Source: an uncultured Lachnospiraceae bacterium (GTDB lineage Bacteria; Bacillota; Clostridia; Lachnospirales; Lachnospiraceae). Taken from it: a stretch of 64,000 nt of DNA. The position numbers and the translations under genes were made by a program. This document shows positions 32,769 to 63,769 of this stretch, piece after piece (within the stretch, counting starts at the first letter, position 1; each line of letters starts with the position of its first letter). The stretch spans positions 20,686 through 84,685 of the forward strand of contig CADBEN010000007.1 of the NCBI GenBank assembly GCA_902793685.1, written 5' to 3'. The notes under the pieces were generated by a model. It saw only the letters and a program-made list of their open reading frames with translations. It did not search any database and was not told where the DNA came from.

Positions 32769-32885
32769 CCGCGCAGGCTTCCGCCTGCTGCATATCCACT
32801 GTAGCCGAAGCATCCGCAGGGAGATCTCCTCTCTGCAGACAGCTTCCCGGTACGGCCAGATCCGCGTGGCCCTCATCCGTTCTCT

Positions 32886-33085
32886 TCCGGCAGGTTTCCT
32901 GGCTTATGGATCAATGCGGAGCACAGCCTTCCCGGACAGAACACCCTGCGCTGCCGCGCGGATATTCCGGTCCAGTGACTGTGCGGTGCACGTTGTGCTC
33001 CGCTCCCCAAATACAGTGACGGGTTCGTACAGGATTCGCACCTGTTTCTCTTTTACCCTCTGCCGCAGCAGAGGCACCGGAAGAA
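32886..33085 (-). ncRNA. Cobalamin riboswitch
   Basis: Read on the minus strand, the conserved cobalamin aptamer blocks come in order: GGTGCGAATCC, CCCGTCACTGTA, GTCACTGG and the B12 box AAGCCAGGAAACCTGCC at 32889-32905. Flanking GC-rich stems fit the class. It precedes a terminator and the CbiK-type gene. Small departures (GTCACTGT for GCAACTGT) are within normal variation. Exact ends are approximate. Confidence 0.92.
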
Positions 33086-33189
33086 CAAAGTATTCAATTA
33101 ATAATCAATTCTATCGCAGAATCAGTTCCTCTGCAAGTGATACAGGGGAAGCGTGATCCCGCGTACTTCACATTTGCCGCATCCGTTGA

Positions 33190-53338: not shown

Positions 53339-54847
53339 TCACGCCGCTTCCCTTGCCGCGTCGCGCTTCGCCTTCCAGTTCTTGTAGGCGGAGGTCTGCG
53401 TCGCGAACATCACGACGATCATGAGGAACAGGATCAGCGCTACCGGCTCCTTGAAGATGCTGAGGAACAGGCCGCCCACAGTCTTCTGCAGCGTCACTCC
53501 GCGGCGGTAGTTGTTCTCAAGAAGGCCGCAGAGGATGACACCCAGGACGCAGGGTGCTACCGGATAGTCGTACTGCTTCATGATATAGCCCAGGATACCG
53601 AATGCCAGCATCCAGAAGATGTCGAACAGGGACTTTCTCAGCGCGAAGGAACCGACGACCGACAGGATGATGATCAGCGGCATCAGGATGCTCTTTGGGA
53701 CCTCGACGATCTTCGCGAACAGCTTGATTCCGGTCAGACCGAAAACAACGAGGAAGATGCTTGCGAACACCAGCAGGGCAACGATGAGGTAGAACAGGTC
53801 CGGCGTGTTTTTCATGAGGTTCGGGCCCGGCTGCAGACCATGGATCTGCAGAGCGCCCAGCAGAACTGCCGTGACAGCATCGCCCGGGATCCCGAGGGTC
53901 AGCATCGGAATGAAGGCGCCGCCGATGGCCGCATTGTTCGCGGATTCCGGCGCGACGATTCCTTCGATCGCTCCCTCGCCGAACGGGACCTTAGGATTCT
54001 TGACCGTGCGTTTCGCCTGGTCATAGCAGAGCAGAGCCGCGATATCGCCGCCGGCGCCCGGCAGCGCTCCGACGATAACACCGACGATGGAAGAACGGAT
54101 CGTCAGAGGGATGTACTCCCTGATGTCATCCCAGGAGGGGATGATCTTGTCGACCTTCTGCTTCACCGGCTTTACCTCCAGGGAGGTCAGCTGGACCAGC
54201 GCCTCAGAGACACCGAAGAGACCGATCATGGCGACGACGAAGTTGACGCCGGAGTTCAGGTAGCTGATGCCGAAGGTGAAGCGGCGGACTGCCGTCATGG
54301 AATCCATGCCGATGGTGCCCATGAAAAGACCGACGCATGCGGTCAGAAGTCCGCGGAAGATCGATTTCGAGTTCAGGCTTCCGACCATCATCATACCCAT
54401 GACTGCCAGGAGCAGGTAATCGACGGAGGAGAAATTGACCGCGAACCTTGCCACGATGGGGGCTGCGATCGCGAGCACGAAGATGCCGAGCAGGGTACCG
54501 ATGACCGACTGGGTCGTCGCGACACCCATGGCTCTTCCTGCCTCGCCCTTCAGTGCCATCGGATATCCGTCAAGGGATGTGGCGACCGCAGAAGGTGCGC
54601 CGGGGATGTTCAGAAGGATCGCGGAACGGGATCCGCCGTAGACAGTACCGACAAAGATACCGATCATCAGGGCAAAGCTGGCCTGCGTCTCCCAGCCGTA
54701 GGTAAAGCTGACCAGCAGCGAGACTGCCATGGTCGCGGACAGGCCCGGGATCGCGCCGACATAGATTCCCGCAAAGGTTCCCACTGCCACCAGCAGGATC
54801 AGCATGGGATTCTGTACCGGGACAAGTAAATAACTTAATACGTCCAT
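53339..54847 (-). CDS. tctA: Tripartite tricarboxylate-type transporter, large permease TctA
   Basis: A 502-residue permease with about eleven to twelve membrane segments. The family signatures are visible: AIPGLSATMAVSLLVSFTYGW, FVGTVYGGSRSAILLNIPGAPSAVATSLDGYPMALKGEAGRAMG near the N-terminus, and IVGVIVGALPGAGGDIAALLCYDQAKR in the middle. It forms the channel of a binding-protein-dependent, ion-driven importer together with TctB and TctC. Known TTT substrates are carboxylates. It is last in the tctCBA operon. Confidence 0.94.
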   Translation of the reverse strand: MDVLSYLLVPVQNPMLILLVAVGTFAGIYVGAIPGLSATMAVSLLVSFTYGWETQASFALMIGIFVGTVYGGSRSAILLNIPGAPSAVATSLDGYPMALKGEAGRAMGVATTQSVIGTLLGIFVLAIAAPIVARFAVNFSSVDYLLLAVMGMMMVGSLNSKSIFRGLLTACVGLFMGTIGMDSMTAVRRFTFGISYLNSGVNFVVAMIGLFGVSEALVQLTSLEVKPVKQKVDKIIPSWDDIREYIPLTIRSSIVGVIVGALPGAGGDIAALLCYDQAKRTVKNPKVPFGEGAIEGIVAPESANNAAIGGAFIPMLTLGIPGDAVTAVLLGALQIHGLQPGPNLMKNTPDLFYLIVALLVFASIFLVVFGLTGIKLFAKIVEVPKSILMPLIIILSVVGSFALRKSLFDIFWMLAFGILGYIMKQYDYPVAPCVLGVILCGLLENNYRRGVTLQKTVGGLFLSIFKEPVALILFLMIVVMFATQTSAYKNWKAKRDAAREAA

Positions 54848-54862: not shown

Positions 54863-55429
54863 TTACGGAAGCACGACCTTGAACAGGGTGCTGAAAACGA
54901 CGAAGATGAATGCCAGACAGACTGCGGTCCAGAAAAGATTTTGGAAAATGACTTTTCCGAGGATCTTTGTATCGATACTTCCGTTCACGCGGAACTTGGA
55001 ACGGTTGTAGAAGATCATGCTGATCCAGAGGAAAACCAGGGTCGCCGGGTAGAAACCGAGCCGCATGTTGAGGGCGACGCAGTAGAGAAAGATCATGATG
55101 ACCATGAAAAGGACGTCCGGCGCAAACAGGAATCTGAATACGTTGGCTGCCTTTTCGCCTCCCCCGGCTCCGTCGTTTTCACTCGGCGCCTTCCGGTCGG
55201 AAAGGAGGATGAGGACTGAGCAGAGAATGATCGCGCCGGTGCAGAACAGCGGGACCGCGCCTGCCGAGCTTACGCCCGGATGCTTCTGGTAGATCTGCAT
55301 GGAGAAGTAAAAGAATACTGCGCCGATGATCAGCCAGAACACCGCAAATCCTTTTTCTCCGGGTTTATACGGTGCGATCGGCTTCAGTTCAGGTTCACGG
55401 ACCTGGTCTTTTTTCGTGTTTTCTGACAT
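54863..55429 (-). CDS. tctB: Tripartite transporter small permease TctB
   Basis: A 188-residue membrane protein with four helices, typical of TctB (GEKGFAVFWLIIGAVFFYFSMQI at the start and a C-terminal IFQNLFWTAVCLAFIFVVFSTLF). Between the binding-protein and TctA genes in the normal order. AAAGGGGGCTATC precedes the ATG; 15 bases separate it from tctA. Confidence 0.88.
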   Translation of the reverse strand: MSENTKKDQVREPELKPIAPYKPGEKGFAVFWLIIGAVFFYFSMQIYQKHPGVSSAGAVPLFCTGAIILCSVLILLSDRKAPSENDGAGGGEKAANVFRFLFAPDVLFMVIMIFLYCVALNMRLGFYPATLVFLWISMIFYNRSKFRVNGSIDTKILGKVIFQNLFWTAVCLAFIFVVFSTLFKVVLP

Positions 55430-55513: not shown

Positions 55514-56575
55514 TTACTGAGCGATGGCGCCGGCCTTGGTCAGAGCGTCGATCGTGTTGGTCTTCCAGCTTTCAAGATACTTCCTGGCATCCTCGCCGGT
55601 GTAGCCCATCGGGTTGATGTTGTAGTTCTTCAGGACTTCCTGGTAGCTAGCATCGTCAAAGCCGGCCTTGAATGCCTCGGAAAGCTTTGCGGTGATGGCC
55701 GGGTCGGTTCCTTCCTTCACGAAGACACCGTAGAACGGGCCCCAGGGCAGATACTGCGCGAAATCCGGATACTCTTCAGTGACCAGCGGGACATCGGGCA
55801 TCTGCTCGACCTTGTCGGTTGCCAGCATGCAGAGGAGCTTCAGGTCGCCGGACTTGTACTCTTCGAGGCAGCTCTGGACCTTGCAGATAGTGAAATCGCA
55901 CTCGCCGCCGAGCACCGCGACTCTTGCGGAAGCATCGGAATCATACTGGACCTGGTTGAAGGTTGCTCCGGTGATGCTGGTGATCAGAGCGCCGACCTCC
56001 CACGGAAGTCCGCCGGTACCGGTGGTTGCCAGGGTGATCTCCTTGCCGCTGTTCGCCGCGTCGCAGATCTCCTTCAGAGAGTGATAGGGGCTGTCCTTGC
56101 CGACTGCAACGCCGGTGGTCTCGTCGCCGATCAGGATGACGCAGTCAAAGTTTTCATAGGTCAGATCCAGGATGTCCAGCGCCTTGTAAAGAGAGGGATT
56201 CTCCGCGCCCATCAGCAGGTTGTAGCCGTCTGCGTCCTGATCATACACGTACTGGGTCGCGATGGATCCTGTGCCGCCGGTCATGTTCTGGACGACGATG
56301 CTCTGGCCGAGCTTGTCCTGGGCCAGCGTTGCCAGCGGACGCATCAGGGAATCGGTTCCGCCGCCTTCACCCCACTGGACAATACCGTTGACGTTCTGGG
56401 TCGGAAAATCGGTGGAGGCCGCTCCGCCTGCCGGTGCTGCCGCCGCTGCCGCCGCAGTGGTGGATGCTGCCGCTGCAGCAGTGGTGGATGCCGGTGCGCT
56501 GCTGCCGCCGCATCCCGTGATGCTGACTGCCGCCATGATTCCCGCTGTCATCAGTGCAAGAACTTTCTTCGTCAT
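55514..56575 (-). CDS. tctC: Tripartite transporter substrate-binding lipoprotein TctC
   Basis: A 353-residue extracytoplasmic binding protein. The lipobox is SITGC (C22), followed by an Ala/Thr linker of about 30 residues. The Bug/TctC fold is shown by IVQWGEGGGTDSLMRPLA (carboxylate-binding loop), VVQNMTGGTGSIATQYVYDQDADGYNLL and GDLKLLCMLATDKVEQMPDVPLVTE. AGGGAGGAAATAACA precedes the ATG. Ligands of this family are usually carboxylates; the shared operator with a dehydroquinate dehydratase gene points to quinate, shikimate or dehydroquinate. Confidence 0.9.
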   Translation of the reverse strand: MTKKVLALMTAGIMAAVSITGCGGSSAPASTTAAAAASTTAAAAAAAPAGGAASTDFPTQNVNGIVQWGEGGGTDSLMRPLATLAQDKLGQSIVVQNMTGGTGSIATQYVYDQDADGYNLLMGAENPSLYKALDILDLTYENFDCVILIGDETTGVAVGKDSPYHSLKEICDAANSGKEITLATTGTGGLPWEVGALITSITGATFNQVQYDSDASARVAVLGGECDFTICKVQSCLEEYKSGDLKLLCMLATDKVEQMPDVPLVTEEYPDFAQYLPWGPFYGVFVKEGTDPAITAKLSEAFKAGFDDASYQEVLKNYNINPMGYTGEDARKYLESWKTNTIDALTKAGAIAQ

Positions 56576-56666: not shown

Positions 56667-56695
56667 ATCATAGTATCAGTTGCGCCAATTCACAA
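56667..56695 (-). promoter_or_regulatory. Predicted promoter of tctCBA
   Basis: Minus strand: -35 TTGTGA (56690-56695), 17-nt spacer, -10 TATGAT (56667-56672). The 39-bp motif at 56696-56734 abuts the -35, the place for an activator. Confidence 0.6.
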
Positions 56696-56734
56696 AAACC
56701 GATAATCTTGACCAAAAAGGTGGATATTTTTGAT
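56696..56734. promoter_or_regulatory. Conserved 39-bp regulatory motif, copy 1 (tctC)
   Basis: Aligns without gaps to 63731-63769, with 33 of 39 bases identical; the unbroken shared core is TGACCAAAAAGGTGGA. It sits directly upstream of the predicted -35 of tctC. It is likely the site of a transcription activator, most simply the AraC-type response regulator encoded next door. Confidence 0.65.
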
Positions 56735-56828
56735 ATGATATACTTGCTCAGCACCTCAGGGATTCTGCAGAAAATATGGACGGGGAGCTCGCTCACCGGA
56801 CATGTTTCCTGCAGAATCACGAGGCGGC

Positions 56829-56896
56829 CAAGGCGTGAAACGCCTCTGGCCGCCGGCAACGAGGATTGCGAAGCGATCCGAGTCTGAGGTGCTGAG
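56829..56896 (+). repeat. Structured dispersed repeat, copy A
   Basis: A 68-base element identical to copy B (57012-57079) except at one position. It contains two short hairpins with GAA loops: GGCGT-GAA-ACGCC and GGATTGC-GAA-GCGATCC. The preceding GAGGCGGCC allows further pairing with GGCCGCC. Confidence 0.85.
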
Positions 56897-57011
56897 GGCT
56901 GAGACCCGCCGAACATGAGGAAGCAGCGGTTTTGCGCAGCAAAACCAGCGGATTCCGAATGTTCACAGGATTGCGGGAGCTGCACAGCAGCGAAGCAATC
57001 CGTGGCATTAT
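56897..57011. other. Hairpin-rich spacer between repeat copies
   Basis: No gene. It holds a GGTTTTGC-GCA-GCAAAACC hairpin (about 56932-56951) enclosed by GAACAT/ATGTTC, and a second one, GGATTGC...GCAATCC (about 56970-57000). Together with the two repeat copies it makes the whole divergent region strongly structured. Confidence 0.55.
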
Positions 57012-57079
57012 CAAGGCGTGAAACGCCTCTGGCCGCCGGCAACGAGGATTGCGAAGCGATCCGAGTCTGAGGGGCTGAG
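57012..57079 (+). repeat. Structured dispersed repeat, copy B
   Basis: Same 68-base element as copy A (67/68 identical), in the same orientation, ending 35 bases before the response regulator ATG. Confidence 0.85.
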
Positions 57080-57114: not shown

Positions 57115-58740
57115 ATGCGCGCGCTTCTTGTGGACGACGAGCCGCTGGTCCTTTCAGCGGCAAGAATGCTGGTAGAATGGGAAAAATACGAGATCACGGA
57201 AGTATTTGAAGCAGGCAACGCCGAAGACGCCCTGAACATCCTGAAAAAGGAAAAGCCGGAGATCGTCCTCTCGGATATCCGCATGCCTGGGATGAGCGGC
57301 CTGGAGTTCATCCGTAAGACCAACGACATCGCCCCGGCGACCCAGACCATCCTGATCACTGCATACGGCGACTTTGCCTATGCCCGGGAAGCGGTAAAGC
57401 TGGGATGTGTCGATTATCTTCTGAAACCGCTGGACGAAGAGGACATCAACAAGGCCGTGGCGAAAGCCGTGAGTCAGTACCGCTCGCGGAAGATGCTGGA
57501 GACGGAAAATTCCTCCGGCCGGACCCAGGATCTGCTGGCGCTTTTCCTGGAAAACGGGCAGACGGAGGAACTGTTCGCGCCGATCCGGAAGACCGCGCCC
57601 TTTTTCTCCGATCTCTCTGTCTGCCGTGCCGGCATCATCTGCACCCGGCAGCTCGCCTATGCGGATACGGGCCTCTATGCGCTGGCAAACGAAGCCCACG
57701 ATTTCCTTTACCGCCGGGGGATCGGAGCCGCCGTCATCGGGAGCAGCGGGGACATCACCCTGCTTATCCGCGACCCGGACGGGACGAATGTTTCCGCATG
57801 TACAGAACTCATGCAAAAGCTTTCCGCGAACGGAGCCCCGGAAGTGCACATGGGCCTCAGCGGCTGCGAAGCCTTCCCGGACCGGCTGCAGAATGCCCTG
57901 CAGGAAGCACGAAAAAACGCACTCTCCTACGACCTTCTGGAGCATTCCGTCCGGGTCCACCGGACAGCGCTCCCTGCCGCGCCGACCCTTTCCTATGAAG
58001 AGACGGAAAAAGACTTTTACCGGGCGGTCCTCTCCGGAAAGGAGACCCGGATCCGGGACGCAGTGCTGCGCCTTGCTGCCCTTCTTCCTTATGAAGGGCA
58101 GATCACACTCCGCAGACTGGAAAATTTCCGTTCGATCTACACAGGGCTCCACGGGAAATGGGTCCTGGGCTTTGAGAAGGAACGCGCCTCCAGCGGTGTC
58201 TCTTCCGCTTCCCCGGCGATGCACACCAGGATCTCTTTTTTCCCGGAAAACGGCAGCTTTTCCATGGAATACTTCGTTCACTGCCTCACGGAGGATCTTT
58301 TCTCCTTGAGCCGCCAGTATGTCCGCCCCCGGGAGGATTCCTCCGGCGATCTGGCTGCCCAGGTGAAGCGGTGGATCGACAGCCGTTATGAAGAACCCCT
58401 GACCCTGGAATCCCTGGCTTCCCGCTTTGCCGTGAGCGACGCCCACCTCTCCCGCACCTTCAAAAAAGAATACGGAACCGGCCCCATCGACTACATCGCC
58501 CGCGTCCGGATCCGGGCAGCGAAAAAGCTGATCGCGGAGCAGAAGCTGAAGCTCACGGAGATCGCCGCAGCCGTCGGCTACCCGGACGCAAAATATTTCA
58601 GCCGTGTATTCCGCCGGATCACAGGCGTTTCCCCGGCGGATTACCGGGCGGATGTCCGGAGCTCCGGATCTGACAGCGGCAGGAGCAGGGAAGATCTCCC
58701 CGGGAACGGGATCCTGTCTCCCGGAAAGGAGGATGCATGA
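57115..58740 (+). CDS. YesN-type response regulator with AraC DNA-binding domain
   Basis: A 541-residue response regulator. The receiver domain (about 1-125) has D7-D8, phospho-acceptor D54 in SDIRMPGMSG and K105-type lysine in LLKPLDEED. A long middle region (about 130-420) of unknown fold follows, and the C-terminus (about 425-525) is an AraC double helix-turn-helix (LTLESLASRFAVSDAHLSRTFKKEYG and LTEIAAAVGYPDAKYFSRVFRRITGVSPADYR). The start has AAGGAGATTCTCC. It overlaps the kinase gene by ATGA. It is the best candidate for activating tctCBA and the second aroD. Confidence 0.92.
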   Translation: MRALLVDDEPLVLSAARMLVEWEKYEITEVFEAGNAEDALNILKKEKPEIVLSDIRMPGMSGLEFIRKTNDIAPATQTILITAYGDFAYAREAVKLGCVDYLLKPLDEEDINKAVAKAVSQYRSRKMLETENSSGRTQDLLALFLENGQTEELFAPIRKTAPFFSDLSVCRAGIICTRQLAYADTGLYALANEAHDFLYRRGIGAAVIGSSGDITLLIRDPDGTNVSACTELMQKLSANGAPEVHMGLSGCEAFPDRLQNALQEARKNALSYDLLEHSVRVHRTALPAAPTLSYEETEKDFYRAVLSGKETRIRDAVLRLAALLPYEGQITLRRLENFRSIYTGLHGKWVLGFEKERASSGVSSASPAMHTRISFFPENGSFSMEYFVHCLTEDLFSLSRQYVRPREDSSGDLAAQVKRWIDSRYEEPLTLESLASRFAVSDAHLSRTFKKEYGTGPIDYIARVRIRAAKKLIAEQKLKLTEIAAAVGYPDAKYFSRVFRRITGVSPADYRADVRSSGSDSGRSREDLPGNGILSPGKEDA

Positions 58741-60614
58741 CTCCGGTCTACCGGTCCGGCTTTGTACGCCGGCTTCTGCGGGTCATCGCCCTGATCCTGA
58801 CCGCAGTATTTATCACCGTCACCTGGGTCACCCAGCGCGACACCCGGAACATCCTGCGGCAGAACGCCATCGACACCGGGCTGCAGCGTATTCAGACAGA
58901 GGCCGATTTTCTGGAGCTTTATATGGACCAGCTGTCCCAGCTGTTCAACACGATTTATGCCAGGGCGGACATTTATTCCAAGCTGCATGAAGCGGAGCTG
59001 AACAGTGCCGACAGCTATTCTCTGTTTCTGTTTGTCCGTTCTCTCTATTTTGTCCCCCGGGAGCCGCAGCTTTACCAGATCTACCTGGATCTCTCCACCT
59101 CCGGGCAGAGCTATATCTACCGCGAACAGGGCAGCTCCTTCGGTCCCAGCCGCTATCATGTGACTCTGCCGGAGGGACTTTCCGCGGGGAAGGCTTTCGG
59201 GGACGGCCCCCATCTGTCCAGCAACTACGGCTATTCCCTGAACACCCCGGCCGCGGAAGTCTACTCTCTGCGCTGGAATATCTATAACTCCGTGCACCGG
59301 GAGATCCTCGGCACCATGAGCTTCGACGTCGAAGTCGCAGAGCTTGCGAAGACGGTATTCCGGGACGCGGCCGAGGACGGGAGCGTAAACTACCTGATCT
59401 CCGGCGACGGAACGATCATCTACGCCGGCGGGACGCCTCTGTCACAGCAGGAGATCGCATCTGTTGTTGCGGAATGCAAAGGCCGGGGCTGGGCAGAATA
59501 CCAGAGTGACGCGATCCGCGGCATCGTGTTCACATCGTCCGCGGAGATCAACGGGATCCAGGTCCGCCTGATCCGGGTCATCCCGGAAAAAACACTTTTT
59601 GCGGAACCGGACCGGATCCTCCGGAGGAATATCCTGATCTTCACTGCCGCCCTGCTGATTCTCTGTCTGCTGATCATCCTGAGTGTGCAGAGCATGTTCC
59701 GTCCGGTCCGGGATCTGAGCCGGTATATTTCCGCAGTCGGCCAGCACGGCATCAAGACGCAGATCTCCGACTATGTGCAGTACGACAAGGACGATGAGAT
59801 CGGGCAGCTGGTGAATTACACCGGCGAAATGATGCGGGACATCAACGATCTGTTCGAGAAGCAGGAGCAGCTGAGCCGTGCCCAGCGGACCGCGGAAGCC
59901 AAGCTTCTTCAGGCCCAGATCAACCCGCATTTCCTGTACAACGCCCTGCAGAGCATTGCGGGGCTTTCCCTGCAGCATGGTGACCGGGAGACCTACCGGT
60001 ATATCAGTATGCTGGGGTCCCGGATGCAGTACAGCATGAACCTGGACCAGACTGTGGTGGAACTGAAACGGGAATTCCGGTACGTGGAGAGCTATCTGGC
60101 TCTCCAGAATGTACGTTTCGGAAACGTCCTTACCACCGATATCCGCCTGGACCCGGAAGCGGAGGACATCCCTGTACCGAAGATGATCCTGCAGCCTCTG
60201 GCGGAAAATGCCTTCAAGCACGGGAAACTCTGCCGCGCGCCCGGCGCGTTCTTCCGAATGACCGCGGAACTGGAAGACTCCGGTCCTGAAAACGCCTGCG
60301 CGGGAGACAGCCTGCATCCCGTTCTCAGGATCCTCATGGAAAACAACGGCGGCAGTTGTCCGCCGGAACGCATGGCGGAACTGAATGCCGCCTTCGCGTC
60401 TGTCCGGACGGAACCTGGCAGCTCAGTTTCTGCCTCCGGATCCCCGGACTCCGAAACTCCGGGCTCCGGCGCCGCGGTCTCCGGCATCGGGATGCAGAAT
60501 GTCCTCTACCGTCTCCGCCTGTACTATGGTCCGGATGTTTCCATGCACATGGATGCCCCGGAGAACGGCGGCGTCCGGATCACTGTCCGCATCCCGCTTC
60601 ATGAAAGACACTGA
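58737..60614 (+). CDS. YesM-type sensor histidine kinase
   Basis: A 625-residue membrane kinase of the His_kinase/LytS-like class. Membrane segments lie at about 12-32 and 300-322, flanking an extracytoplasmic sensor (about 33-298, dCache/YesM type). A HAMP domain follows (about 323-375), then the phosphorylation motif QINPHFLYNAL with H398 and a C-terminal ATPase domain with PLAENAFKHG and GIGMQNVLYRL. A variable Ser/Gly/Pro stretch (about 555-585) is inserted between ATPase motifs. The ligand could be the cluster's substrate. It is coupled to the response regulator by overlapping stop and start. Confidence 0.92.
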   Translation: MTPVYRSGFVRRLLRVIALILTAVFITVTWVTQRDTRNILRQNAIDTGLQRIQTEADFLELYMDQLSQLFNTIYARADIYSKLHEAELNSADSYSLFLFVRSLYFVPREPQLYQIYLDLSTSGQSYIYREQGSSFGPSRYHVTLPEGLSAGKAFGDGPHLSSNYGYSLNTPAAEVYSLRWNIYNSVHREILGTMSFDVEVAELAKTVFRDAAEDGSVNYLISGDGTIIYAGGTPLSQQEIASVVAECKGRGWAEYQSDAIRGIVFTSSAEINGIQVRLIRVIPEKTLFAEPDRILRRNILIFTAALLILCLLIILSVQSMFRPVRDLSRYISAVGQHGIKTQISDYVQYDKDDEIGQLVNYTGEMMRDINDLFEKQEQLSRAQRTAEAKLLQAQINPHFLYNALQSIAGLSLQHGDRETYRYISMLGSRMQYSMNLDQTVVELKREFRYVESYLALQNVRFGNVLTTDIRLDPEAEDIPVPKMILQPLAENAFKHGKLCRAPGAFFRMTAELEDSGPENACAGDSLHPVLRILMENNGGSCPPERMAELNAAFASVRTEPGSSVSASGSPDSETPGSGAAVSGIGMQNVLYRLRLYYGPDVSMHMDAPENGGVRITVRIPLHERH

Positions 60615-60673: not shown

Positions 60674-61435
60674 ATGAATACTGTCATGGTCCGGAACCTG
60701 GAGATCGGCGCAGGGGCACCGAAGATCATCGTCCCCATCGTGGCCAAGACCCGGGAAGGAATTCTTGAAAAAGCAGCGGAACTCAAAAACTATACAATGG
60801 ACCTCGTAGAGTGGCGCGTCGACTTCTTTGAGGACGCTCTCGACATCGAAAAGACGGTGGAAACTGCAGAGCTCCTGAACAAAGCCCTCGGCGATACCCC
60901 GCTTCTCTTCACCTTCCGCACCGCCCTTGAGGGTGGAAACAAGGAAATCCCGCCTGCGCATTACACAGCGCTGAACAAAGCCGTGGCGGAAAGCGGCCAG
61001 GTCGACATCATTGACGTCGAGTCGAACACCAACCGCACGGAAGCAGATGAGAATATCCGGAACATCCACGCGGCCCACCTGCCGGTCATCGGCTCCTACC
61101 ACAACTTCTCCGAGACCCCTGACACCAGCGAACTCCTGTACATCATGCGGAACATCCAGCGGCGCGACGCTGACATCGTAAAGGTCGCAGTCATGCCAAG
61201 AACCCGGGCCGATGTCGTCTCCCTTCTGGACGCGACCCAGATCATGTTCACCAAATATGCCATCCGTCCCATCCTCACCATGAGTATGGGACAGCTGGGC
61301 GTCATCTCCCGCGTCACGGGCGATGCCTTCGGTTCCTGTGCCACCTTCGGCGCGGTAGGCCAGACCTCGGCGCCGGGCCAGATTCCGGTAAATGACCTGC
61401 ATACTGTCCTGCGTATTCTGCACGAGGCGAGGTGA
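60674..61435 (+). CDS. aroD: Type I 3-dehydroquinate dehydratase, copy 1
   Basis: A 253-residue Schiff-base enzyme that dehydrates 3-dehydroquinate to 3-dehydroshikimate. The catalytic residues H143 (GSYHNF) and K170 (DIVKVAVMP) fall at the same positions as in the well-studied enterobacterial enzyme; the substrate Arg region is in VEWRVDFF, and the C-terminal GQTSAPGQIP is conserved. TGAGGAGTGAACACC precedes the ATG. It follows the two-component genes by 59 bases on the same strand and may be transcribed with them. Copy 2 is at 62887-63648; the two are clear paralogues. Confidence 0.95.
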   Translation: MNTVMVRNLEIGAGAPKIIVPIVAKTREGILEKAAELKNYTMDLVEWRVDFFEDALDIEKTVETAELLNKALGDTPLLFTFRTALEGGNKEIPPAHYTALNKAVAESGQVDIIDVESNTNRTEADENIRNIHAAHLPVIGSYHNFSETPDTSELLYIMRNIQRRDADIVKVAVMPRTRADVVSLLDATQIMFTKYAIRPILTMSMGQLGVISRVTGDAFGSCATFGAVGQTSAPGQIPVNDLHTVLRILHEAR

Positions 61436-61778: not shown

Positions 61779-62642
61779 TTATGAGAAGAACTTCGCCTTG
61801 ATCTCCTCGGTGGGCATCTTCTTTCCGGTCCAGAGTTCAAAGGAAGCTGCACCCTGGTACAGAAGCATGTACATGCCATTGAAGGTCTTGAGACCTGCTT
61901 CACGCGCCATCTTCAGAAGCTCCGTCTCCTTCGGCTCGTAGATGACGTCCGCCACCACCAGCCCCTCGTGGAAATAGGAGGGATCCGGGATCAGGCAGCC
62001 CGGGATCCGGGACATGCCGACAGGGGTGGTGTTGAGGAGAATGTCTGCGCCCTGCAGGCAGGGCTTCAGCTCATCCATGTTCTTCAGGTCGTGGAGACGG
62101 ACCGTGCACTTTGTCTCCGCGTTCAGCTGCGCGACGATATTCTCGACCCGCGGCCAGAAGCCGTCATGGGCATTGAAGACATCGATCTCCTTCACGCCGT
62201 CGATGGCTGCCTGCACCAGGATCGCGGTGCCCGCGCCGCCGGCGCCGAGCTGGACCATCTTCTTTCCGACCGGGTCTACACCCGCATCCAGGGCGCTGCG
62301 CATCCAGCCGATACCGTCCGTCGTGTGGCCGGTCAGACGGCCGTTGTCGTTCACCACCGTGTTCACTGCGCCGGAGATCTTCGCTGCCGGGGAAAGCTCG
62401 TCCGCCAGAAGCGCCATATCGTTCTTGTCCGGCATGGTCAGGTTGAAACCCCGGACCCCCAGGGTCACAAGACCCCGGACCGCCGTCTCCAGATGGAGCG
62501 GCTTCACGTCAAACGCAAGATACTCATAATCAAGATCAAGGATCCGGCACGCCTCATTGTGCATCTCCGGAGAGATGCTGTGTGCCACCGGGCTGCCCAG
62601 CAGACAGAGAAGGCCGGTGTGACCCGTAACATTTCTGCTCAT
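61779..62642 (-). CDS. aroE: Shikimate/quinate dehydrogenase
   Basis: A 287-residue NAD(P)-dependent oxidoreductase of the AroE/YdiB group. Substrate-binding SPVAHSISPEMHN (S22, S24), catalytic K73 in NLTMPDKND and D109 in TTDGIGW are present, as is the dinucleotide loop LGAGGAG (132-138). It reduces 3-dehydroshikimate to shikimate; the YdiB branch also uses quinate and 3-dehydroquinate, and the catabolic setting here makes that plausible. The coenzyme loop continues VFNAHDGF rather than NR[T/S]xxK, hinting at NAD. AAAGGAGATTAATT precedes the ATG. Confidence 0.9.
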   Translation of the reverse strand: MSRNVTGHTGLLCLLGSPVAHSISPEMHNEACRILDLDYEYLAFDVKPLHLETAVRGLVTLGVRGFNLTMPDKNDMALLADELSPAAKISGAVNTVVNDNGRLTGHTTDGIGWMRSALDAGVDPVGKKMVQLGAGGAGTAILVQAAIDGVKEIDVFNAHDGFWPRVENIVAQLNAETKCTVRLHDLKNMDELKPCLQGADILLNTTPVGMSRIPGCLIPDPSYFHEGLVVADVIYEPKETELLKMAREAGLKTFNGMYMLLYQGAASFELWTGKKMPTEEIKAKFFS

Positions 62643-62740: not shown

Positions 62741-62810
62741 CCTGACTCGGGATGCTTCGCATCCCTCGTTATCGGCGCCCAGAGGCGCTTCGCGCCTTGG
62801 CCGCCTCGGA
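62741..62810 (-). repeat. Structured dispersed repeat, copy C
   Basis: Read on the minus strand this is a diverged copy of the 56829-56896 element: GAGGCGGCCAAGGCG leads into GGCGC-GAA-GCGCC, and GGGATGC-GAA-GCATCCC follows. The stems differ from copies A and B by paired substitutions that keep base pairing. It lies just outside the terminator of the second aroD. Confidence 0.75.
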
Positions 62811-62886: not shown

Positions 62887-63648
62887 TTACATGGCTTCGT
62901 GCAGGATCGCCATCTCCGTCTGCAGCTTCTCCACCGGGATCTGGCCCGGGGCGGAGACCTGTCCGACCGCGCCGAAGGTCATCGCGGAACCGAACGCTTC
63001 TCCGGCAATGCGGGTGATGACGCCCATCGGTCCCATGCTCATGGTGATGATCGGCCGGTCCGCATACTTCTCAGCCATCTCGGAAGTTGCCGCAAGGACC
63101 GTCGCCACATCCTGTCTGCAGGTGGGCATCAGAGCGATCTTCGGAAGATCCGCGCCAAGGTCCTGCATCTTCCGCAGGCGGTAAAGGATGTCCGCCTTGT
63201 CCGGGGTCTTGAAGAAATCATGGTTGGAGCCCACGACGACTTTGCCTGCCGCATGGATGTTGGCAATATTCTGAAGGACGACGTCATCGCCGGAGAAAAT
63301 CTCGACATCGACCGCGTCCACATATCCGCTCTCCGCCACCGCCTTGTTCAGCGCAGTGTAAGTCTCCATGTCGATCTCCTTCTCGCCGCCTTCCTTCTTC
63401 GTGCGGAAGGTGAAAAGGATCGGGGTCTCGCCCAGGGCTGCGCGAAGTGCCTTCGCAGTCTCGATGACCTTCGGGATCTCAAAAACGTCGTCATAGAAAT
63501 CGACACGCCATTCGACGACGTCCATCGTGTAATTCTTAAGCTCTGCGCCCTTGGCAGCGATCCCTGCCGCATTCTTCGCGACGATCGGGACAATGACCTT
63601 CGGTGCACCGGTGCCGATCTCAAGGTTTCTCATCATAACAGTCTTCAT
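62887..63648 (-). CDS. aroD: Type I 3-dehydroquinate dehydratase, copy 2
   Basis: A second complete 253-residue type I dehydratase, with H143 (GSNHDF) and K170 (LPKIALMP) in register with copy 1 and no deletions between them. The two share most blocks (NLEIGxGAPKxIVPIVAK, LKNYTMDxVEWRVDF, GQxSAPGQIPVxxL) but differ over the variable loops, so duplication is not recent. CAGGAGGAGATAACT precedes the ATG. It has its own promoter with the 39-bp motif and lies upstream of aroE on the same strand, separated by a terminator-like hairpin. Confidence 0.95.
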   Translation of the reverse strand: MKTVMMRNLEIGTGAPKVIVPIVAKNAAGIAAKGAELKNYTMDVVEWRVDFYDDVFEIPKVIETAKALRAALGETPILFTFRTKKEGGEKEIDMETYTALNKAVAESGYVDAVDVEIFSGDDVVLQNIANIHAAGKVVVGSNHDFFKTPDKADILYRLRKMQDLGADLPKIALMPTCRQDVATVLAATSEMAEKYADRPIITMSMGPMGVITRIAGEAFGSAMTFGAVGQVSAPGQIPVEKLQTEMAILHEAM

Positions 63649-63704: not shown

Positions 63705-63732
63705 ATCCTATCCGCCTGCCAGACTCCATCAA
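63705..63732 (-). promoter_or_regulatory. Predicted promoter of the second aroD
   Basis: Minus strand: -35 TTGATG (63727-63732), 16-nt spacer, -10 TAGGAT (63705-63710). The -35 overlaps the end of the 39-bp motif by two bases. Confidence 0.55.
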
Positions 63733-63769
63733 ACCGACAAACCTGACCAAAAAGGTGGACGATTTTGAT
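63731..63769. promoter_or_regulatory. Conserved 39-bp regulatory motif, copy 2 (aroD)
   Basis: Same motif as 56696-56734, in the same orientation relative to the gene it precedes (both read leftwards). Six substitutions in 39 bases, none in the central 16. Probable activator site. Confidence 0.65.

Follow-up and report, generated by a model that had tools for sequence, protein, structure and literature searches.

The stretch of DNA analysed here, referred to as the window, comprises 64,000 nucleotides from the genome of an uncultured Lachnospiraceae bacterium (assembly GCA_902793685.1, contig CADBEN010000007.1). It carries two copies of a 39-bp motif, at 56696-56734 and 63731-63769. The first lies upstream of the transporter gene tctC (start 56575) and the second upstream of the dehydratase gene aroD2 (start 63648); both genes are on the minus strand and, as the initial annotation had noted, the copies face the same way relative to them.

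tctC (55514..56575, minus strand) encodes the solute-binding protein of a tripartite tricarboxylate transporter and is accompanied by tctB (54863..55429, minus) and tctA (53339..54847, minus). According to Pfam (TctC, TctB and TctA), the complete transporter set is present. On the other strand, yesN (57115..58740, plus) encodes a YesN-type response regulator, the proposed binder of the motif, with a receiver (Pfam Response_reg, 4-115) and an AraC-type helix-turn-helix (HTH) domain (HTH_18, 434-512). The end of yesN overlaps by 4 bases the start of yesM (58737..60614, plus), the gene of a YesM-type histidine kinase (Pfam His_kinase, PF06580, E 5.7e-22). Behind yesM lies aroD1 (60674..61435, plus), which encodes a type I 3-dehydroquinate dehydratase. 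A second gene of this type, aroD2 (62887..63648, minus; Pfam and NCBIfam), and the aroE-type gene downstream of it (61779..62642, minus) form a separate unit beyond yesNM-aroD1, away from tctA. Both AroD proteins score above the cut-off of NCBIfam TIGR01093, and a search of the assembly with AroD2 returned these two type I genes only. For AroE, which Pfam assigns to the shikimate dehydrogenase type and which is a putative shikimate (or quinate/shikimate) dehydrogenase, 17 NCBIfam models were listed, those of shikimate and quinate/shikimate dehydrogenases included, all below their own cut-offs.

Two copies of the motif in the window

The two copies align without gaps at 33/39 identities, in agreement with the initial annotation, and the runner-up matches to the two 39-mers on both strands of the window reach 23/39 and 22/39. 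Read on the minus strand, the copy before tctC is ATCAAAAATATCCACCTTTTTGGTCAAGATTATCGGTTT and the copy before aroD2 is ATCAAAATCGTCCACCTTTTTGGTCAGGTTTGTCGGTTT. About 3e-6 pairs this good are expected by chance per 64 kb with a match probability of 0.232, or 9e-3 with one of 0.30.

Both copies share a 16-base run, TGACCAAAAAGGTGGA. With up to 3 mismatches allowed, this core occurs twice in the window, both times exactly; shuffled sequences contained it 0.45 times on average and at least twice in 10/100 cases, so this core carries less weight by itself than the full 39-mer does. A 29-base pattern, searched for with up to 3 mismatches in the 2.54-Mb assembly (94.6% complete), matches at the two sites and at no unrelated promoter or intragenic position. 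Its single match outside this genome among 397 genomes of the family, in G305, has three mismatches, lies inside an open reading frame (ORF) and was dismissed as chance. At neither copy did we find an Rfam structured RNA family above the gathering score. Just upstream of the tctC site there is an inverted repeat (56761-56818) with 28-nt arms that are 82% complementary.

The site and its promoters in related genomes

Searches covered the same 397 family genomes, with that of the window among them. YesN was matched at E 1e-80 or better in four (the window genome, G053, G293 and G310), the YesN of G169 falling below this limit, and TctC at E 1e-90 or better in six (the same four, G169 and G324). 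G401, a member of the same genus as G293 (in which 2/6 genomes match), was included as well, and the two are counted as one lineage. The genes of G053 run in one direction in the order yesN-yesM-tctC-tctB-tctA-aroD-aroE, and those of G293 and G401 in the order yesN-yesM-tctCBA-aroD. In G169, yesN and tctC stand back to back as in the window; yesNM-tctCBA is present, with no aroD nearby. The locus is thus patchy across the family, yet its make-up is kept across genera. Linkage of transporter and dehydratase is likewise seen in several genera, as aroD adjoins tctA in G053, G293 and G401.

The upstream half of the motif, RTCAAAANNRTCCACCT, was also found upstream of tctC, reading in the same direction as the gene, in four genomes that belong to three other genera: as GTCAAAAAAGTCCACCTCAAAGGTCAGGTTTGTAGGTTT in G053, as ATCAAAATAGTCCACCTTCGGGAAACAAGATATTCGGTTT in G293, with one change in G401, and as GTCAAAAATGTCCACCTGAAACGGATAAAAAATTAAGTTT in G169. 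With the window genome counted, five genomes from four genera have the site before tctC; the window genome also has it before aroD2. The consensus of the two window copies has 14 fixed positions of 17, and out of these 14 the half-sites before tctC match 13 in G053, 14 in G293, 14 in G401 and 13 in G169. For each of the four upstream regions, the score was reached by 0/1000 dinucleotide shuffles. The 15 control regions, taken upstream of five tctC genes without this yesNM and of aroD, aroE and yesN genes, scored 7-11, none reaching 12/14.

One could suppose that the window copies are a chance likeness of A+T-rich promoter segments, and two copies in one genome alone would not exclude this. The recurrence before tctC in four relatives contradicts it, as do the 33/39 match, the rarity of the pattern in the assembly, the shuffle tests and the fixed column of the -10 element described below; we regard this explanation as negligible. 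A recent duplication, or a mobile repeat with no part in regulation, is also a very improbable origin of the copies. The intergenic region does hold other repeats, namely a 68-nt direct repeat. The assembly, however, has just two copies of the motif, both at promoters, in the same orientation and at the same distance from the -10 element, and the site is kept across genera while its flanks are not (agreement at 6-19 of 40 positions between sites of different genera). As far as sequence can, this contradicts a duplication, which the initial annotation had also discounted.

Its claim of an invariant 16-base core held in part. The run is exact in both window copies, but its TTTTT is replaced by TCAAA in G053 and by TTCGG in G293. 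The core is partly spacer; between genera, RTCAAAANNRTCCACCT is the part that is kept, and the second half is kept more weakly.

We compared the first 12 bases of each site with the stretch 17-27 bases further on. The best offset is 22 for the window tctC (9/12), the window aroD2 (7/12) and G053 (6/12), and 23 for G293 and G401 (9/12 each); in G169, offsets 23 and 24 tie (7/12). When the downstream part was shuffled 5000 times and the best score at offsets 21-23 was taken, the observed score was reached 0 times for the window tctC, 20 for the window aroD2, 9 for G293 and 4 for G401. The direct repeat is clear in these four sites and weak in the other two, those of G053 and G169.

In window coordinates, all on the minus strand, the tctC site consists of an upstream half-site at 56718..56734 (ATCAAAAATATCCACCT), the one that recurs in the four relatives, and a downstream half-site at 56696..56712 (GTCAAGATTATCGGTTT), its direct repeat. 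The corresponding half-sites before aroD2 lie at 63753..63769 (ATCAAAATCGTCCACCT) and 63731..63747 (GTCAGGTTTGTCGGTTT). The end of each site overlaps an inferred weak -35 element, TTTTTG (56693..56698) for tctC and TTTGAT (63728..63733) for aroD2, so that the contact with -35 described in the initial annotation was borne out. The inferred -10 elements are TACTAT (56670..56675) and TAGGAT (63705..63710), at the same distance from their boxes.

This arrangement is common to all six promoters: the repeat is followed by [GA]G-TTTnnn, then 17 bases, then TANNNT. Counted from the start of the site, TANNNT begins at column 59 in both window promoters and in G053, and at column 60 in G293, G401 and G169, in step with the repeat offset (22 with 59, 23 with 60, given the tie in G169). 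None of 5000 shuffles placed it in even 5/6 promoters at any column pair. The inferred -35 hexamers are all poor (TTTTTG, TTTGAT, TTTCAT, TTTTAT, TTTTTT and TTTATA). A generic promoter scan, which wants a near-consensus -35, reported an overlapping TTGTGA/TATGAT three bases further on at tctC and nothing at the proposed place at the aroD2 site; both outcomes fit weak -35 elements. We read this layout as what would be an AraC-type dimer site in activating position.

Specificity of the half-site was examined with mechanical ORFs of 100 aa or more; by this test, even the window tctC site falls on a 124-aa ORF that arises by chance. With at most one mismatch, ten chosen genomes gave 27 matches to the half-site and 13 to the reversed pattern. 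Of the seven exact matches, six are the promoters named above and the seventh falls within an ORF of G324; the 20 matches with one mismatch all overlap ORFs. The window genome contributes two exact matches and three with one mismatch. These three overlap mechanical ORFs, though two may lie outside real genes: one (L143) overlaps nothing but a 156-aa ORF that fills a gap left by longer ones, and the other (L146) is at the extreme end of the longest ORF there. Among 378 family genomes there were 47 exact half-sites, in 41 genomes, against 20 for the reversed pattern. Five are at the loci described here. Of the 42 elsewhere, 38 overlap ORFs, ten of them in ORFs of 376-379 aa that probably represent one conserved gene, and four lie outside: G111 has two, set in the same context, and G085 and G205 have one each.

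The dehydratases were followed separately. AroD is matched at E 1e-70 or better in 64/397 genomes, the window genome included. We inspected the AroD neighbourhoods of 22 of the 63 others (G293 at two places), and tct genes together with a full-length yesN match were found only in G053 and G293; G102, G394 and G317 had a partial yesN match only. In a tree of 23 AroD proteins, from which G124, G145 and G232 were left out, AroD2 stands with the AroD proteins of the module, outside a 16-member group (100/100), its exact place being weak. AroD1 is on a long branch.

Candidate regulator and signal

The 39-bp motif is a cis-regulatory site, and we propose, with a probability of roughly 0.8, that the YesN-type response regulator encoded beside it uses it as its operator. 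The box precedes tctC in the five genomes in which a similar yesNM adjoins this gene, and in none of the five tctC homologues examined that lack such a yesNM (one in G324, three in G310 and one in G398). The last of these is the one close TctC homologue (61%) outside the window genome among the seven genomes of its genus, and its tctCBA has no yesNM or aroD match within the 30 kb examined. In G324 and at one G310 locus, a YesN of another kind is encoded near tctC. Eight distant loci found in a search for YesN relatives had no tct or aroD match and no site of at least 13/14 (one reached 12). Taken together, these comparisons suggest that YesN is likely to bind the sites.

The site in G205 lies outside the tctC context. 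This exact half-site (L191 7967-7983, plus) is located between yesMN and a DctP-DctP-DctQ operon, which encodes a TRAP transporter, and begins 77 bases beyond the end of the match to yesN, which here follows yesM. A TATAAT begins at column 59, as in the window promoters; TANNNT falls at column 59 or 60 by chance in 210/5000 shuffles of G205, and among the 42 other half-sites it is seen there only in G205 and in one site inside an ORF. We consider this fair independent support for the half-site belonging with YesN regulators and binding-protein transporters.

The operator may be real and conserved and still belong to another regulator encoded elsewhere, with yesNM as a mere neighbour. The divergence of the YesN DNA-binding domains, which in the other box genomes are only 43-47% identical to that of the window, speaks for such an arrangement. 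We consider it rather unlikely in view of the five-to-none association of box and adjoining yesNM, the renewed position of the half-site beside yesMN in G205 and the direct repeat, which fits an AraC-type dimer. It is similarly unlikely, and to our mind a shade more so, that YesN represses, or tunes as well as blocks, instead of activating. A protein on the downstream half-site would overlap the inferred -35 and could also block the polymerase; AraC-type regulators, however, mostly activate, and poor -35 hexamers are what is expected of activator-dependent promoters.

Several further observations weigh against activation by YesN at these sites. The YesN proteins found in the other box genomes share no more than 35-41% identity with that of the window, and the YesN/YesM pair of G310, at 35% identity, comes without a tctC box. 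The second HTH does not separate the groups sharply, since it reads D[AP]KYFSRVF in the five box genomes and DEKYFSRVF in G310. G053 and G169 have a weak downstream half-site, the repeat score being attained in 636 and 565 of 5000 shuffles, respectively. No box precedes aroD1, the gene behind yesM, and the region before aroD in G401 scores 11/14, which 2/200 shuffles reached. The half-site is commoner than the reversed pattern in both genome sets, and the excess is nearly all inside ORFs. The G205 site has no repeat at offset 22-23 and no TTT at the -35 place, the YesN beside it matches that of the window in pieces of 31-34%, and yesM and yesN are each read in two frames there, which we also count against it.

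Other features were seen beside these regulators. The YesN/YesM pair of G310 adjoins an SBP_bac_5 gene, and before its yesM there is an inverted repeat (L083 15634-15667), each arm of which matches the half-site at 11/14; we consider this look-alike suggestive only. The tctC genes of G324 and G310 with the other kind of YesN nearby are preceded by a different, A-rich box, TCAAAAA(A)ATTTCCACTG (L119 about 190-240; L121), possibly the operator of that YesN kind, and in G324 TTCAAAAA recurs, by eye, 21 bases on. In G169, YesN (L117 13350-14528, minus) is 392 aa long in the mechanical ORF, and the segment that the other YesN proteins have between receiver and HTH is missing.

If YesN is indeed the activator, YesM would respond to a hydroaromatic acid outside the cell (quinate, shikimate or 3-dehydroshikimate), possibly with the binding protein TctC as its partner, and would phosphorylate YesN. 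Two YesN molecules, head to tail on the repeats, may then recruit RNA polymerase to the weak promoters, so that TctCBA, the importer, would be produced along with AroD2 and AroE. Since dehydroquinate, dehydroshikimate and shikimate are the compounds on which AroD and AroE act, the most natural candidate for the ligand is a hydroaromatic acid. The whole scheme of two-component sensing of such an acid, with TctC as extracellular partner of YesM and importer, AroD and AroE switched on together, is offered tentatively and, taken as a whole, is less likely than not to be right.

In G053, G293 and G401, aroD has no box of its own and directly follows tctA, so that one tctC promoter could serve tctCBA-aroD (in G053 also aroE). 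In the window genome, the detached aroD2-aroE would share this control through the second copy of the site, and we regard its presence there as the strongest indication that producing importer and dehydratase together matters. The initial annotation had suggested co-activation of tctC and aroD2 by the neighbouring YesN-type regulator, and our sequence tests support this suggestion: the box accompanies a similar yesNM-tctCBA locus in four genera, the repeat geometry is clear in 4/6 promoters and the distance to -10 is fixed in 6/6.

Comparison with described systems and other local elements

The predicted site resembles araI1-I2 of the Escherichia coli ara operon, in which two half-sites form a direct repeat with a spacing of about two helical turns and the downstream one lies at -35. 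The ara half-sites are spaced by 21 bp, compared with 22-23 here. Unlike the sugar-binding AraC, the regulator described here is a response regulator with a receiver, and the half-site sequence differs. YesN-type regulators are common in Clostridia, and little is known about their operators. The site, the half-site spacing, the promoter position and two target units are predicted precisely here.

Response regulators of the AraC type with a kinase gene alongside are described for XydS/R of Clostridium cellulolyticum (PMC3572039) and for pneumococcal TCS07 and YesNM (PMC11034029); their grouping with the window system is our own. These systems differ in their targets (hemicellulases, glycans and redox genes) and motifs. 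The pneumococcal study places a candidate RR07 motif 39-60 bases upstream of the start site and identifies no clear repeat motif for YesN (PMC11034029).

The regulators of the known citrate systems belong to other families than YesN, and the window genes differ from those systems in their link to aroD/aroE. The two have in common a tripartite tricarboxylate transporter operon with a two-component system: TctD, BctDE and CitAB control tctCBA-type citrate transporters, activation of tctCBA by two-component systems is known, and the binding protein BctC joins in signalling (PMC5812351). A rumen operational taxonomic unit has been proposed to turn quinate into chorismate (PMC10054779). No paper combining the tripartite tricarboxylate transporter with shikimate and quinate was among the top-ranked literature matches, and in further searches no title among the matches listed described the motif or the locus.

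For one branch of TctCBA transporters, the locus points to plant-derived hydroaromatic acids as a possible substrate class. If the proposal is true, the two units would form a regulon for hydroaromatic-acid uptake of a type that the literature searches did not turn up, and the half-site would be a first readable operator code for a wider YesN group, to which the TRAP operon beside yesMN may point.

Additionally, several other elements were recorded in the window. Between tctC and yesN, at 56887-57010 (plus), lies a Clostridiales-1 RNA (Rfam RF01699, 71 bits), a family with four matches in the assembly, three of them over the cut-off. It is framed by the 68-nt direct repeat (56829-56896 and 57012-57079, 99% identical), and a relative of part of this repeat lies between aroD2 and aroE, at 62779-62796 (minus). 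A cobalamin riboswitch (102 bits) is located at 32872-33096 (minus).
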